From NCBI GenBank assembly GCA_937928045.1, contig CALFWO010000003.1, positions 1-64,000 on the forward strand: a DNA stretch of 64,000 bases, read 5' to 3'. Position numbers and translations under genes: made by a program. Positions within the stretch are counted from its first letter, which is position 1. Each line of letters begins with the position of its first letter. The notes below the pieces were generated by a model. It ran no database searches. It was given only the letters and a program-made list of their open reading frames with translations, and was not told the origin of the DNA. Origin of the DNA: an uncultured Saprospiraceae bacterium. GTDB taxonomy: Bacteria > Bacteroidota > Bacteroidia > Chitinophagales > Saprospiraceae. Below, piece by piece: positions 36,748-56,335 of this stretch.

Positions 36748-38169
36748 TTACTTTTCAAGTTCTGCAATTTTTTCTTCAATCCAAGTACGATTCACAGCAA
36801 TTCCTTTCATTTCAGAAAGCGTTGTTTTTATTTTATTAATTTTCTTTTTATCACCTGGTATGATTTGTATCAATTGACTCATGATTTTAATTAAATTTTT
36901 GTAGTTGGATCGGCGGCCAGAATCTAATTCTTTGTGACGAGTAATGTAGGTACGAAGTGACCGAAGTAGAGAGTCCAAAGCATCATATTCATTAAGTTCA
37001 AAGTAGGTTTGAATAAGTGTAACTTTAGTTTTGAGGTTATCAAATAAATCCCTGAATTCATAGTCCCTTATAACTTCGATTACTTTATGGAATTCTTTTT
37101 TATAAAAATAAATTAAGCCAAGCTGAAATCTAAGTTGGTTTTCTTTAATTTTTTTGGGTAAGAATTCTCCATATTCTATTGCAAATTTTTCTGCCCAATC
37201 TGATTCACCTTGCCTTAATGCCGTGACTGTAATATTTCGATATTTAACTCTAGTCATTTTATTGTTTTCAAGGATAAGGTCTAGAGCAATTAAAGATTTA
37301 TAAATACTAAATAATTTTTGTAGAAATTCTTGCTGACCGTTATTAATTTTTCCAATGCAAAAGTTTATTAGTGAAGTGTAAATTGAATTAACTTCGGCCT
37401 TGTCAATTTTGTTACCCTCTTTCGTAAGTAAGTTCTCTAATTCACTATAAAAATTGATGTCCTCATTATTAGATACTTGAGTTAGATAAACAAGTCTGTA
37501 AATTTGTCCAATTGGAGAAAGTAGTTCTGGAGATTCATTAACCAATGATAATATTTCATTGATCAAAGTAATATTGGTTTCTCTTTTTACCAATTTAGTA
37601 CGGCTATTAAGATCCGTGGCAAATTTGAACTTTTCGGAAAAATAATACTGGTCTAAATTATTTAGGATAGTAGGTAAATTGCTAGTTTCTGTTCGATTTC
37701 CTCGATGTTCAATTAGATATCTTTCTTTTTCAAGTTGAATTTTGAAAAGTAAAAAGTCAGGGGAGTATTTGTGTTTTTTTTGTTTTGGATCTTCAATATT
37801 CTTAATTAATCCATTGAGTAGAGGTTTGATGTTTTTTTTTCGTACCGCTCTTATGGAATGTAAGTCAAACGCGAATTTATCAGATTGAAAGTCTTCATTT
37901 GCAATAAACCTGACAATCAGCTTTGTTAAATCTGATTGATATTTTCGAAATCTGACTTCATTAAAAGGCCCTTTAGCCTTTATTATGCCCCAAATTTTAG
38001 AATTATCTTCTACAGCTGCATTGTTTAGTTCAAGCCTTGAATAATAATCAAACAAAGAAAGAATTTGAGTATTTGTGTTGAAATAGGGAGAGTTTAAAAA
38101 TTTTCGAAGCTTGCGAAGTTCTTTGTATTCAAATATTTCTAATACTTGAATGAGTTTTGTTTTTTTCAT
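36748..38169 (-). CDS. Helical repeat-like protein of unknown function
   Basis: 473 residues, soluble, no signal peptide, rich in Lys, Leu, Ile and Glu. The N terminus (IFEYKELRKLRKFLNSPYFNTN) and many amphipathic helix pairs (ALDSLLRSLRTYITRHKELD) suggest a TPR-like or HEAT-like scaffold. I recall similar long helical proteins in Saprospiraceae annotated only as hypothetical, but no characterised relative. It is the first gene of a two-gene minus-strand unit with the 2-hydroxyacid dehydrogenase, whose start directly follows its stop. Confidence 0.65.
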   Translation of the reverse strand: MKKTKLIQVLEIFEYKELRKLRKFLNSPYFNTNTQILSLFDYYSRLELNNAAVEDNSKIWGIIKAKGPFNEVRFRKYQSDLTKLIVRFIANEDFQSDKFAFDLHSIRAVRKKNIKPLLNGLIKNIEDPKQKKHKYSPDFLLFKIQLEKERYLIEHRGNRTETSNLPTILNNLDQYYFSEKFKFATDLNSRTKLVKRETNITLINEILSLVNESPELLSPIGQIYRLVYLTQVSNNEDINFYSELENLLTKEGNKIDKAEVNSIYTSLINFCIGKINNGQQEFLQKLFSIYKSLIALDLILENNKMTRVKYRNITVTALRQGESDWAEKFAIEYGEFLPKKIKENQLRFQLGLIYFYKKEFHKVIEVIRDYEFRDLFDNLKTKVTLIQTYFELNEYDALDSLLRSLRTYITRHKELDSGRRSNYKNLIKIMSQLIQIIPGDKKKINKIKTTLSEMKGIAVNRTWIEEKIAELEK

Positions 38170-38403
38170 AGGAAATAATTCACTATTTTTAACCGATAGC
38201 TCTAGAATGAAACTTTTAAAAATTCACAAATTGTTGGGTTGTATAATCTTAACTCATTAATTTAGAGAAGTTTACAATCGTTTATTTTTAGGGTTCGTAG
38301 TGATTGGTCTTCACAATGTATGAATTTTGTACCGTTTTCAAGTATGAAAATGACACAAATTTATATGAGTAAGGATTTAATCCCTCCATACAATACTACG
38401 AGA

Positions 38404-50750: not shown

Positions 50751-52376
50751 TCACTCCTTTTTCAAAAAAACAAATGCCCCTTCCGCTCCAATTTTTTTGA
50801 AGTTGGTGTTCTCAGGCAAACGATCCACTCGGTGAATCCGGCTGATCATATATACTGGTTTATCTTGGGAATGATTATACAACCAATTCAACCGAGTCAT
50901 TCCTTCGGGTGGGGCATCTACAGCGTTGCCATAATAGTATGGAGCATAACTTTTATAACCATGATGCATAATTATCGCATCCTTTGCGTGGGTTTTACAA
51001 AATTCAATCGCAGGGCGTTGAGTTAAGTTTTCAATACGTCCGATAAATGCACCTAATGCAATAAAAATATAAATCGCCGTTCCCAAGAAAATAATATTTA
51101 AGCGTTTCGTGGAATTGGCTTCGGTGAAGAACACAGTATATATAATTGTAAGTATTCCTAAAGCACCAGGTAAATAAGTCCATGCAGGCCAATCTACCGG
51201 AGTTGCTATGGTCGCCATGACTTCAATGTTCTTCGGCTCATTGATAATCCATTCTAAGTGTTGAGCGATATAGGGCAATGCCAAAGACAGACCGGCAAGC
51301 AATAATGCATTTATAAATAATCCGAAGCTCAGCAATGAACCCAATTTTTTCCCCAACTCATACTTGTATAAGGTATATGCAGCTAAAAAACTTAAAGGAT
51401 AATAAGCCAAAGAAGAGTAGTGTACGATTTTGGATTGTACGATTGAAAAAAGAATCAAGACTACCATCAAAAGTATCACCATCCATTTTCTAAATACTTC
51501 CAAATTAACTTGCGCTTGAGGAATAGAACTTGGTTGCCAAATACTTTTTAAGGCAAACCAACTCATGGGAAAACAAGCAAACAGCACTACCACAAAATGA
51601 TAACCGGGAAATCCTCCATGTCCAGCATCTTGTGTTTGAAACAATCGAATCTGATAGGTGATGAATTGTTCAATGAACCAAGGTCCGTTGGTGAAATACT
51701 CGTATAAGAACCAAGAACTCATGGTGGCAAATCCTGTAATTAAAGTGGCAATGATGGTGGAAAATGGAATCCAATACTTTCGCGGAATTACCACAAATCC
51801 AATCAACCAAACCAAGCCCATGATTGCAATGACCACTGGTCCTTTAACTAATACAGCCGCTCCAAAAAAAAGTCCTGCCCAAGCTCCTGAGCGGATATTT
51901 ATTTTTTTGGATTTTCCAATGCTAGTATAAAATAAGTGAATGGCACCAATGAAAATAAAGGCATTGAAAATTGGGTCCAGAATCCCTGATCGAAAATACA
52001 AATGGGGTAAAAGTGAACCTAGGTAGGCGATGGCCCACCACCAACCAAATCTTTCATTAACATACTTTCGACCTAGGAAATACAAATATTGAATGACAAA
52101 TATTCCAAGCAGCGCATTTGGCAATCTTGCAGAGAATTCATTGACGCCAAAAATCCGCATGCAAGTTGATTGGATCCAAAAGAACAAAGGCGGCTTTTCC
52201 CAAAAGGGTTCAAAACCAATTTGAATTTGTGAGTAGTTTCCGGAGACGATCATCTCTCGACTGATCTCTGCAAAGTTAATTTCATCCCAATCAAATAAAT
52301 GCACTTCGCCCAGGCCTGGTAAAAACAGCAAAGCCGCAAGGACAAGCAGAACAATATTTGAAGGAAGTTGCTTCAT
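50751..52376 (-). CDS. ArnT/PMT-like family 39 glycosyltransferase
   Basis: 541 residues with about 11-12 membrane segments. The first periplasmic loop carries the acidic pair of GT-C enzymes (FDWDEINFAEISREM, Asp31-Glu32), followed by PFWEKPPLFFWIQS and the segment RLPNALLG, all typical of ArnT and PMT-like enzymes that use polyprenyl-phosphate sugars on the periplasmic side. The acceptor may be lipid A, protein or another envelope glycan. Its ATG overlaps the stop of the RluA gene by one base (TAATG), making it the third gene of the unit ribF-GT2, rluA, arnT-like. Confidence 0.9.
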   Translation of the reverse strand: MKQLPSNIVLLVLAALLFLPGLGEVHLFDWDEINFAEISREMIVSGNYSQIQIGFEPFWEKPPLFFWIQSTCMRIFGVNEFSARLPNALLGIFVIQYLYFLGRKYVNERFGWWWAIAYLGSLLPHLYFRSGILDPIFNAFIFIGAIHLFYTSIGKSKKINIRSGAWAGLFFGAAVLVKGPVVIAIMGLVWLIGFVVIPRKYWIPFSTIIATLITGFATMSSWFLYEYFTNGPWFIEQFITYQIRLFQTQDAGHGGFPGYHFVVVLFACFPMSWFALKSIWQPSSIPQAQVNLEVFRKWMVILLMVVLILFSIVQSKIVHYSSLAYYPLSFLAAYTLYKYELGKKLGSLLSFGLFINALLLAGLSLALPYIAQHLEWIINEPKNIEVMATIATPVDWPAWTYLPGALGILTIIYTVFFTEANSTKRLNIIFLGTAIYIFIALGAFIGRIENLTQRPAIEFCKTHAKDAIIMHHGYKSYAPYYYGNAVDAPPEGMTRLNWLYNHSQDKPVYMISRIHRVDRLPENTNFKKIGAEGAFVFLKKE

Positions 52377-53113
52377 TATTTTTTATTCCATTTTTCCAAT
52401 TGTTTTGATAAAGCTCTTAAATCCTTTGGGAATTCCGCCGTTAGAACTTGTTCTTCTTGGGTGCTCGGATTTTTAAAAACCAAAGTTTTTGCATGGAGAC
52501 TTAACCTAGAAAGTAAAGGCCTTTCTTCCTCGGCTTTACCTTTGGAAAATTTCTTTCCTTTGAAGCTTGATAAGTACCAGGCTTCTTTCTTCGCATAATC
52601 TTTATCAACTAAAAGCGGATGACCAATCGATCGAAGATGAACCCGAATTTGATGGGTTCGTCCAGTTTCGATTTTTACTTCGACTAATGCAATATCTTGA
52701 TAAACTTCCAGAACTTTATAATGACTAACAGCTTGCTTCCCATTCCGATTAATTTTCATTTTTCCCGGACGAGAAGGATCACTGGCGATTGGTTTATCAA
52801 TGCTTCCCGTTTCATTATTAGGTATTCCTTGTACAAAAGCGAGATATGTTTTGTCAACTTTTTTACCTTGCCATTGATTGCTTAAATCTCGATGTGCTTC
52901 TGGTGTCTTTGCAAAGATTATAATTCCGCTAGTAAATTTATCCAAACGATGAACAGGGATGATTACCTCGCGATCTTGAAGCAACAGGTTTTTCAAGTTG
53001 GGCAACTCTGGCTTGAATCTATCTGGGATAGACAAGACCCCTGCAGGTTTGTTCACAACAACGATTGACTCGTCTTCAAATAGTATTTCTACTTTGTTTT
53101 TATTTTTCGCCAT
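52376..53113 (-). CDS. RluA-family pseudouridine synthase
   Basis: About 245 residues from ATG 53113, which lies in the last codons of the upstream fusion gene (14-base overlap); an ATG at 53155 is possible. The catalytic Asp58 is in the family motif HRLDKFTSG, followed by KTYLAFVQG, ETGRTHQIRVHLRSIGHPLLVD and LHAKTLVF. The enzyme isomerises uridine in rRNA or tRNA; no N-terminal S4 domain is present, which points to the RluA/RluC-like tRNA or rRNA type without S4. It sits between two glycosyltransferase genes. Confidence 0.93.
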   Translation of the reverse strand: MAKNKNKVEILFEDESIVVVNKPAGVLSIPDRFKPELPNLKNLLLQDREVIIPVHRLDKFTSGIIIFAKTPEAHRDLSNQWQGKKVDKTYLAFVQGIPNNETGSIDKPIASDPSRPGKMKINRNGKQAVSHYKVLEVYQDIALVEVKIETGRTHQIRVHLRSIGHPLLVDKDYAKKEAWYLSSFKGKKFSKGKAEEERPLLSRLSLHAKTLVFKNPSTQEEQVLTAEFPKDLRALSKQLEKWNKK

Positions 53114-55109
53114 TAAGATCTGAGAAATACTTTTTTCCTTTGATAAAATATTCATAAACTATTGAATGCTGATACCATCCAGCAATCTTAATTTTATGAT
53201 TTAGTTGGTTGGTCGAAATAGCCAAAGATTCTATTGCTCTTCGCTTTCGTATAGTTCCGATTTTGCCGTAAAAACTAAAATGCGCTCGGATAATCGCCCA
53301 GCAATCTTTGGGTTGTCCTGAAAGCAAAAATTTAATTCCAGCAACACCATCTAATAAAAGTCGGATGACAATGTTGGCGAATAAAGAAAATCCACTTTTA
53401 TTTTTTGCAACCATGATCAGACTATTTCTAAAATTAAGAAATGTCTTTCTAGGGTTCTGATAACTCAAAGTGCCTCCTCCCAAGTGATACACAATTGATT
53501 TTGGCGCGAACTTTATTTGATAACCCATGCGTTGTATTCTCCAGCATAGATCTATTTCTTCAAGGTGCGCAAAAAACTGTGGATCTAAACCTCCCACTTT
53601 TTTATAGACTTCATTCCGAACTAAGAATGCACATCCTGATGCCCAAAAAATATTAATTTCATCATCGTATTGATTCAAATCCTTTTCCAATGTCTGAAAC
53701 AATCTTCCGCGGCAAAATGGAAATCCCCAACGATCTATCCAGCCACCAGCGGCTCCTGCATATTCAAAATATACTGGATCACGATCCGAGCGAATCTTTG
53801 GTTGAACAACAGCAATCGAAGGATTTTTTGTGATCACTTTCATCGCTTCTTCCAGCCAGTTGACTTCAACTCGAACATCGGAATTGAGCAATACTAAATA
53901 TTCTGAATCTATCATTGCCAAAGACTTTTTATAGCCTCCTGTAAAACCATAATTTTCATCCAATAGCTGTAATTCTATATTGGGATAATTGATTTTTAAA
54001 AATTCAACTGAATCATCAGTAGAGGCGTTATCTGCTACAACGATTCTAAGATTATCATATTTAGTTTTAAGAACAGAAGGCATGTATTTGGCCAAATGGT
54101 CTTTGCCATTGTAATTTAAAATAACAACAGCTACTTCAGGCGCTTTAGTTACTGTCGGCTTTTTTTTTATTGAAGAAAAATAAGCCTGTACATTTTGCTG
54201 ATCAAGCTGAATAGCAGATTTCAATTCATCAAAGCTGTTGTACTTCTGGTCGCCACGAATGTATTTTTTGATGTCAACTTGAATCGGATGTTCATAAATA
54301 TTATCATCAAAATCAAAAATATTCACCTCGATGGTTAATTCATTAATATGATCTACCGTTGGTCGCTGACCAATGTACATCATCCCTTCCAAACCAAATT
54401 TATTCATCTTTGGAAGATCGACAGTGACGGCATAAATCCCTTGTTCCGGAATTAATTTGTGAACTTCATCAAGTTTCAAATTGGCTGTTGGAAATCCAAG
54501 CTGCTTTCCTAATTTTTCTCCTTCCTTTACAGTTCCATATAGGCTATAATTGTGACCTAACAAGTCTGCTGCCAACTGCATGTCACCGGTAGCAATGGCT
54601 TTTCTGACTTTAGTTGATGAAATGGCTAGGTCGTTGATTTCTTCCTTTTGAATTTCAATGATTGAAATATCCTTTTGATTCAATTCTTTTTTAAGTAATT
54701 CGATATTCCCAGCTCTGTTTTTCCCAAATTTATGATCATAACCAATTACAATACTTTTAGGATGAAACTTATCAATCAAGAAATTGTGAATGTAGTCTTC
54801 TGGAGATTGGCTAGAGAAAATTTTATCAAATGGTACGATGACCAGATTGTCTATTCCGATAGATTCTAATCGATTGATTTTTTCCTCAATACTTTGTAAG
54901 AGCTTTAACTCTGTTTGCTGCGGATTTAGAAAAATTCTAGGATGGGGATAAAAAGTGATTACAACACTTTCGCCATTATTGTCTTTAGCGATGGATTTAA
55001 GTTGCTTAAGGATCTTTTGATGTCCCAAATGTACGCCATCAAAGCTACCAATAGTAACTGCAGAATTCTGAAAAGATGGCAAAGCATTTAAGTCCGAGAA
55101 TACCCTCAT
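53100..55109 (-). CDS. ribF: RibF (riboflavin kinase/FAD synthetase) fused to a GT2 glycosyltransferase
   Basis: 669 residues from ATG 55109 (an ATG at 55148 is upstream). Residues 1-305 are a complete RibF: FAD synthetase motifs SFDGVHLGH (about 22-30) and ISSTKVRKAI (about 164-173), then the riboflavin kinase GTVKEGEKLGKQLGFPTANL, GQRPTV and YIRGDQKYNSFDELK. After a short linker SSIKKKPTVTK, residues 326-669 are a family-2 glycosyltransferase: VVILNYNG, VADNASTDDS, LLNSDVRV (acidic metal site), FFAHLEEIDLCWRIQRMGY. The linker has a run of nine A, and no ATG, GTG or TTG lies between the two parts in this frame. It heads the overlapping unit with rluA and the ArnT-like gene. Confidence 0.9.
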   Translation of the reverse strand: MRVFSDLNALPSFQNSAVTIGSFDGVHLGHQKILKQLKSIAKDNNGESVVITFYPHPRIFLNPQQTELKLLQSIEEKINRLESIGIDNLVIVPFDKIFSSQSPEDYIHNFLIDKFHPKSIVIGYDHKFGKNRAGNIELLKKELNQKDISIIEIQKEEINDLAISSTKVRKAIATGDMQLAADLLGHNYSLYGTVKEGEKLGKQLGFPTANLKLDEVHKLIPEQGIYAVTVDLPKMNKFGLEGMMYIGQRPTVDHINELTIEVNIFDFDDNIYEHPIQVDIKKYIRGDQKYNSFDELKSAIQLDQQNVQAYFSSIKKKPTVTKAPEVAVVILNYNGKDHLAKYMPSVLKTKYDNLRIVVADNASTDDSVEFLKINYPNIELQLLDENYGFTGGYKKSLAMIDSEYLVLLNSDVRVEVNWLEEAMKVITKNPSIAVVQPKIRSDRDPVYFEYAGAAGGWIDRWGFPFCRGRLFQTLEKDLNQYDDEINIFWASGCAFLVRNEVYKKVGGLDPQFFAHLEEIDLCWRIQRMGYQIKFAPKSIVYHLGGGTLSYQNPRKTFLNFRNSLIMVAKNKSGFSLFANIVIRLLLDGVAGIKFLLSGQPKDCWAIIRAHFSFYGKIGTIRKRRAIESLAISTNQLNHKIKIAGWYQHSIVYEYFIKGKKYFSDLNGEK
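54160..54168 (-). other. A9 run at the RibF/GT2 junction
   Basis: Nine consecutive A on the coding strand encode part of the Lys triplet in SSIKKKP. Dropping one A brings a TAA four codons after the run, and gaining one brings a TAA five codons after it, so slippage in either direction would yield RibF alone. A sequencing or assembly error at the run must also be considered. Confidence 0.7.
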
Positions 55110-55246
55110 GAAGCGCAAATATAAGGTCTTCAAAAGGAAAAATTTCATTTCCAGCTTTCCAAAAAATCAAGAACAGAAATAGTATTCAAAAACCTTATGC
55201 TGCCATCAAATGTTTTACCTTTACACTAAGAAAAAGCATACTGTTT

Positions 55247-56335
55247 ATGGATAAAATGAAAGTGGTAGAGGCATTGAGCAAAGTGAAAGAGCCACAATCT
55301 GGTAAAGATCTGATTACCCTAAATATTGTTACAGATTTGAAGGTTGAAGGAAACCAAGTCTCCTTTACGCTTGAATTACCTTCCATGAATTATGCCCATA
55401 AAGGTCCATTGAATATGGCTTGTCAACAAGCCATGCTGGAGTTGGATCCAACCGCTCAAGTTCACATTCATATGCAAGGTGGAACACAAAAGCCTCCAAC
55501 CGAAACACCACCAGCTTTATCTCAGGTCAAACATATTATTGCAGTCGCATCGGGAAAAGGAGGTGTTGGGAAATCAACAGTAGCAGTGAATTTGGCACTG
55601 AGCCTTAAGAAGTTAGGCGGAAAGGTTGGAATTATAGATGCAGATCTATACGGACCTAGTATTCCTACAATGTTAGGTCTTGTTGGTCAACGGCCTAAAG
55701 TGCAGGAGATTGATGGAAAGCATTATTTGTTGCCACTTCGCCATGAAGATATGCCGGTGATGTCGATTGGATTCATTGTTGAACCGGAACAAGCAGTAGT
55801 GCTAAGAGGACCAAGATTGGGGTCTATTCTTCGTCAATTTATCAATGATTGTATCTGGCCAGAATTGGACTATTTGATAATTGATTTGCCTCCAGGGACT
55901 GGCGATATCCAGTTAACATTAGTTCAAAGCTTGCCGGTAACAGGCGTAGTGATGGTAACAACGCCGCAAGAAGTAGCGCTAGCCGATGCGATCAAAGCAA
56001 TGAATATGTTCCTTTTACCTTCCGTCAATGTTCCGATTCTTGGTGTGGTGGAAAATATGAGCTGGTTTACCCCTGCAGAACTACCAAACAACAAGTATTA
56101 TATCTTTGGTAAAGGAGCTGGTAAAAAGTTAGCCATGGCCGCTCAGTCATCCCTCTTAGGCCAATTGCCCTTGATTCAATCTGTCCGAGAAGGAGGAGAC
56201 GAGGGCAAACCGATAGCAAGTCAAAATGGAGAAGCCAGTGAAAGATTTGAGCAAATAGCTAAAAATACGATCGAGCAACTGAATTTGAGATTAGAGTATC
56301 GAGACCCAACATCTCCGGTGCAAATCAAGATTTAG
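55247..56335 (+). CDS. mrp: Mrp/ApbC-type P-loop ATPase (Fe-S carrier)
   Basis: 362 residues: an N-terminal DUF59/MIP18-like domain (residues 1-78) and a Mrp ATPase with SGKGGVGKST at 102-111, IIDADLYGPSIPTMLG, and DYLIIDLPPGTGDIQLTL. Mrp proteins transfer or assemble Fe-S clusters. The C-terminal CxxC that holds the bridging cluster in E. coli Mrp is missing: after VVENMSWF comes TPAELPNNKYYIFGKG. I believe this is usual in Bacteroidota. A NifU-type CxxC protein is encoded just downstream. ATG start at 55247; the gene is divergent from the RibF fusion gene. Confidence 0.93.
   Translation: MDKMKVVEALSKVKEPQSGKDLITLNIVTDLKVEGNQVSFTLELPSMNYAHKGPLNMACQQAMLELDPTAQVHIHMQGGTQKPPTETPPALSQVKHIIAVASGKGGVGKSTVAVNLALSLKKLGGKVGIIDADLYGPSIPTMLGLVGQRPKVQEIDGKHYLLPLRHEDMPVMSIGFIVEPEQAVVLRGPRLGSILRQFINDCIWPELDYLIIDLPPGTGDIQLTLVQSLPVTGVVMVTTPQEVALADAIKAMNMFLLPSVNVPILGVVENMSWFTPAELPNNKYYIFGKGAGKKLAMAAQSSLLGQLPLIQSVREGGDEGKPIASQNGEASERFEQIAKNTIEQLNLRLEYRDPTSPVQIKI

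Follow-up and report, generated by a model that had tools for sequence, protein, structure and literature searches.

RibF makes FMN and FAD. On contig CALFWO010000003.1 of an uncultured Saprospiraceae bacterium (assembly GCA_937928045.1), within the 64,000-nucleotide stretch analyzed here (the window), ribF shares a single open reading frame with a family 2 glycosyltransferase (GT2), and nine consecutive adenines (A9) lie where the two coding sequences meet. This arrangement raises two questions: why an enzyme of flavin synthesis is tethered to a glycosyltransferase, and whether the adenine run allows one gene to yield both free and tethered RibF, as an initial annotation of the sequence had proposed.

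A RibF-GT2 fusion in Saprospiraceae

The ribF-GT2 gene (positions 53100..55109, minus strand) encodes 669 amino acids, and a second in-frame ATG is found further upstream, at 55148. As proposed, RibF and the GT2 are both intact within one frame: all 669 codons are open, and the Pfam profiles match in the order FAD_syn, Flavokinase, GT2. The FAD synthetase (adenylyltransferase) domain (residues 14–167; 54609..55070, minus; PF06574, E=1e-50, 171.9 bits) and the riboflavin kinase domain (residues 184–311; 54177..54560, minus; PF01687, E=3e-36, 124.7 bits) both far exceed their curated cut-offs, and the protein scores 254.6 against a cut-off of 184.35 for the NCBIfam RibF profile TIGR00083. The GT2 domain (residues 324–669; 53103..54140, minus) matches PF13641 and PF00535, the latter over residues 328–505 and far above its cut-off. 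Motif residues are kept: across 41 aligned fusions we found RibF residues F23 D24 G25 H27, S164 S165 and R169, kinase-domain residues P207 T208 A209 N210 and E261, and GT2 residues D360, N409-x-D411, E517 E518 I519 D520 and H542-x-G544 G545 to be invariant.

An AlphaFold model of the fusion protein (mean pLDDT 88.5, pTM 0.58) contains two well-formed domains. In this model the last RibF helix covers residues 293–315 and pLDDT is below 50 at residues 317–321. The A9 run (54160..54168, minus; A's on the sense strand) is present at the domain joint as annotated, right behind that helix, after the end of the kinase domain at residue 311 and before the GT2 fold, whose first strand is at residue 324. 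Both shifted frames stop within five codons of this candidate slip site: a one-base deletion would close RibF at a TAA 8 nt beyond the run (54149..54151, minus), and a one-base insertion or a −1 ribosomal shift would close it at a TAA 12 nt beyond (54145..54147, minus). The absence of a start codon near the GT2 was also borne out, the closest in-frame ATG, GTG or TTG upstream of the glycosyltransferase core being a TTG that lies 28 codons away, within RibF.

The initial annotation had allowed for a misassembly with no counterpart in any relative and had suggested a search for RibF C-terminal extensions. We identified ribF and GT2 in one open frame in 147 of 193 distinct (non-identical) loci from Saprospiraceae, a family assignment taken from named records, which rules out misassembly or a one-off fusion. 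Among 101 relatives, the fusion aligned over its full length as a single piece in most of those from the same family, and 298 genomes sampled from the family gave the same picture; the few family genomes without a full match probably reflect contigs broken at the locus. In the unfused family loci examined, ribF and GT2 are co-directional neighbors that overlap or leave a small gap between them, with larger inserts in a few (e.g., L152 and L171) and a single exception (G058) in which the two genes are ~80 kb apart. In L152 (genome G140) the genes are parted by 1.3 kb of inserted DNA, which contains an open frame of 381 codons in the opposite orientation; in L175 (genome G178) the gap right after the ribF stop is filled by a short unit, GGTTGAAT, in tandem copies; and in L171, a congener of L175, the gap is longer.

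None of the 395 genomes sampled across the phylum carries a RibF-GT2 fusion outside the family. In this sample the GT2 orthologue outside Saprospiraceae is a stand-alone gene whose product is about 43–52% identical to the fused domain, and it adjoined ribF in none of the 20 loci examined. A GT-only tree was poorly resolved, with outgroups scattered among family tips, and left the root state (fused or split) ambiguous. The RibF-GT2 fusion is a Saprospiraceae trait, and the GT2 is otherwise a separate, widely conserved Bacteroidota enzyme. We found no earlier report of the fusion in the literature searched, which took in few subscription journals.

We examined gene neighborhoods for the likely role of the GT2. 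The 3′ end of the fusion gene overlaps a gene for an RluA-type pseudouridine synthase (52376..53155, minus; PF00849), which in turn abuts a gene for an ArnT/PMT-like membrane glycosyltransferase (50751..52376, minus; PF13231) in a likely operon. Upstream lies a divergent gene (55247..56335, plus) whose product we take, from sequence features, to be an Mrp-like ATPase. A co-directional downstream rluA recurs in 125 family loci and the divergent upstream mrp in 106. The initial annotation had read the overlapping neighbors as an envelope-glycan context; the overlap with rluA holds, but the envelope link is weak, the ArnT-like gene having been seen in only 12 family loci (in many the flank is too short to judge), and we set it aside as an envelope marker.

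Outside the family the neighbors of the GT2 orthologue are mostly variable across the 20 loci examined, and the one recurring neighbor is an acyltransferase gene, directly upstream in L290, L295, L298 and L300. This product is presumably LpxL/HtrB-like, judging from sequence features, and is thus a weak pointer to lipid A or lipopolysaccharide (LPS) assembly – if only weakly, a better envelope hint than the ArnT-like neighbor. The GT2 itself has a GT-A fold, with GlfT2 and polypeptide GalNAc-transferases as its best Foldseek neighbors at low identity; its best PDB sequence match has E=3e-7, and it has no close characterized relative. On this weak evidence, the GT2 probably has a role in assembling envelope glycan or LPS. 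The plain account of its tie to RibF is that neighboring genes of an operon became fused, with shared operon control and coupled expression our simplest guess at the reason for the tether.

An excess of adenine runs in the linker

Of 191 linkers, 33 (28 fused, five split) carry a run of at least nine A's, and such runs are confined to this part of the locus. Elsewhere in the ribF-GT2 genes, over the other 1.9 kb, no A run is longer than 8. Whereas the linkers hold 34 such runs in 18.7 kb, neighboring ORF bodies hold none in 247 kb, and in the flanks of the same loci we found none in 20 kb upstream of neighboring starts and none in 35 kb of 3′ ends. Two linker runs can occur together: L007 (genome G051) has an A9 and an A10 in one fusion linker, ~22 nt apart.

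One explanation would be a plain fusion with a lysine-rich linker, in which AAA-AAA-AAA is functionless and decay or misassembly accounts for the few split loci. The linker is indeed richer in lysine than the rest (a fraction of 0.119 versus 0.069), and 119 of the 147 fused loci (about 80%) lack a run of at least nine A's, including the window's two sampled congeners (L005, A7; L006, A3). We therefore resampled codons from each gene's own usage while holding the linker amino acids, and so its lysines, fixed. Fused linkers contained 29 runs of at least nine A's against 11.7 (11.65) expected (Poisson P about 1e-5), whereas the rest of the genes contained none against 13.2 expected (Poisson P about 2e-6) – the P values being guides rather than exact probabilities because the loci are related by descent. 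The excess was strongest in genes of at least 50% GC (nine observed against 2.1 expected), and runs were found even in genes of 51–60% GC, which again argues against a functionless lysine stretch. The A run in the linker is a real signal, beyond lysine content and codon usage. One argument for slippage did not survive: out-of-frame stops lie near by default, and the shifted-frame stops, whose closeness the initial annotation had stressed, are no closer than background (P=0.11).

The runs are scattered on the tree, with at least 21 changes for 33 tips, which implies that they have been gained and lost repeatedly. Their lengths peak at about 10 (9–10), dip at 8 and never exceed 11. In genus g17 an A9–A10 run is kept in four of four species, three of them in frame. 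As a word, A9 occurs genome-wide at 167 places on both strands; a further copy in the window (37832–37840, minus) lies early in a 491-codon open frame (36751–38223, minus).

Loci with the GT2 one base out of frame

Five split loci (L146, L147, L150, L167 and L190) carry an A10 or A11 run soon after which the RibF frame stops. In all five, adding a single A, or shifting the ribosome by −1, would join the RibF and GT2 frames. None of these five has an ATG for the GT2, versus 30 of the 39 other split loci (Fisher P=0.002). L146, L147 and L150, which represent three genera, have no ATG, GTG or TTG anywhere from the last in-frame stop to the glycosyltransferase core. In these three loci the GT2 is apparently reached only through a shift at the run.

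The same state is shared by four species of one genus, g96 (genomes G105, G197, G726 and G727), all of which keep an A10 with the GT2 one base out of frame. RibF stops immediately after the run in three of the four. Candidate GT2 starts are weak: a TTG eight codons ahead of the core in G197 and G726, a GTG at the core in G727, and none in G105. The glycosyltransferase frame is nonetheless intact over 343–344 codons, and in the three pairs compared, which share 70–83% DNA identity, it differs at 101–120 third codon positions against 12–25 second positions, implying that it is under purifying selection and presumably expressed. The four assemblies consist of 560 to 1070 contigs, a pattern suggesting short-read data, in which the same A10 miscount in four species is unlikely. 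Three further loci of the genus (L208, L209 and L307) are fused and have no run. An out-of-frame A10 common to four species, ahead of a glycosyltransferase under purifying selection, is hard to square with decaying or mis-assembled split loci, and together with the run excess it makes a plain fusion with an inert lysine-rich linker an unlikely account.

These loci also bear on whether the run acts by replication slippage, toggling the fusion between cells as in phase variation. Glycosyltransferases are common phase-variable genes, poly-A runs this long mutate often, and in-frame and out-of-frame states both occur. Among the genomes compared, one per species, the states nevertheless look settled rather than toggling: the four g96 species are all in the same out-of-frame state, g17 holds its A9–A10 in every species with three in frame, and no run exceeds 11. 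We regard phase variation as quite improbable.

The A-rich stretch could alternatively serve as an initiation region for a free GT2. Bacteroidetes starts favor upstream A's, and A's at −3, −6, −12 and −13 promote initiation in Flavobacterium (PMC6847099). In three loci (L022, L228 and L026) the sequence A9-TG supplies an in-frame ATG, preceded by GGGAGG in L022 and L228, and some g96 and g6 loci offer a candidate TTG or GTG. Yet 25 of the 28 run-bearing fused loci have no in-frame ATG at the run, the 20 kb upstream of neighboring ATG starts is free of such runs, and the three start-less split loci described above offer no ATG, GTG or TTG from which to initiate. As a general explanation of the run, internal initiation has in our estimate as slim a chance as phase variation.

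A shift during gene expression could occur on the polymerase or on the ribosome. A −1 ribosomal frameshift of the E. coli dnaX type would suit every out-of-frame A10/A11 locus, each of which needs a shift equal to −1 on the ribosome, and ribosomes are known to slip on A-rich heptamers (PMC3711429). We found no signal for downstream RNA structure as a stimulator of such a shift (mean z −0.06, weaker than in run-less loci), and discarded it. The length distribution provides a second line of evidence. In many bacterial genomes, A/T runs of about nine or more are selected against (PMC1088944), and the linker peak appears to match this threshold rather than the A6–A7 that would be enough for ribosomal slippage. 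Run lengths that peak near 10 and the lack of downstream structure favor transcriptional slippage, and ribosomal frameshifting seems rather unlikely, if somewhat less so than the plain fusion.

Probable transcriptional slippage and known parallels

These results suggest that programmed slippage, most likely transcriptional, probably yields both RibF and RibF-GT2 from one gene. RNA polymerase would slip on the A run, and the free RibF would stop a few codons at most from the run, right behind its last helix. In genomes with joined frames, as in the window, the gene would give mainly the fusion, with free RibF as a minor product; with the frames one base apart, free RibF would predominate and the fusion would be the minor product. 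Most of these loci lack a separate ATG for the GT2, which would therefore always be tethered to RibF. We consider it likely, from the comparative pattern, that the slip site is functional in at least some relatives; for the window's own copy we lean towards slippage with less assurance, the pattern across the family being our guide. The initial proposal is thus strengthened by the family-wide comparison and weakened by the two congeners that lack the run – and since 119 of 147 fused loci do so, slippage is not needed for fusion.

An evolutionary reading also fits, in which the run would let overlapping genes pass to fusion and back while expression is kept, and would then decay. Sister species with in-frame and out-of-frame versions offer a natural series for the fusing and separating of genes through slippage with expression kept. 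We speculate, with considerable doubt, that a family-wide slip site governs the proportion of free RibF to RibF-GT2; an envelope glycosyltransferase would then exist only as an appendage of RibF, in an amount dictated by transcript slippage, and the assembly of envelope glycan would be coupled to flavin supply. No metabolic logic is known for the fusion, yet it persists across a bacterial family. Automatic annotation may label some of these loci frameshifted or start-less.

Comparison with known proteins separates what is familiar from what is new. The RibF part has the two domains and motif residues of TIGR00083 proteins, and in Foldseek its fold agrees with FAD synthetase structures from Corynebacterium and Thermotoga; the fusion differs in adding a complete GT2 enzyme at the C terminus. 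The fused GT2 resembles the stand-alone Bacteroidota enzymes of PF00535, with a DxD-like NSD and an EExD motif, but these have their own gene, not beside ribF in the 20 loci examined, whereas the fused domain lacks its own ATG.

By comparison across relatives, the joint shows signs of programmed slippage, outside well-known cases such as dnaX and insertion sequences. In Thermus thermophilus dnaX, transcriptional slippage on an A9 gives two products (PMC1088944), and an A10 in other dnaX genes has been read as transcriptional slippage too (PMC3711429). The RibF-GT2 linker shares the A9–A10 run, and with it a shorter and a longer product that are here predicted; it differs in that the run would decide the attachment of an unrelated enzyme and in that relatives differ, some being in frame and others out of frame. 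Transcriptional frameshifting in Citrobacter rodentium tssM is reported to produce two length variants from an interrupted gene (PMC4256274). This is the rescue of a single gene, whereas the RibF-GT2 run lies at the joint of two enzymes and recurs across a family.
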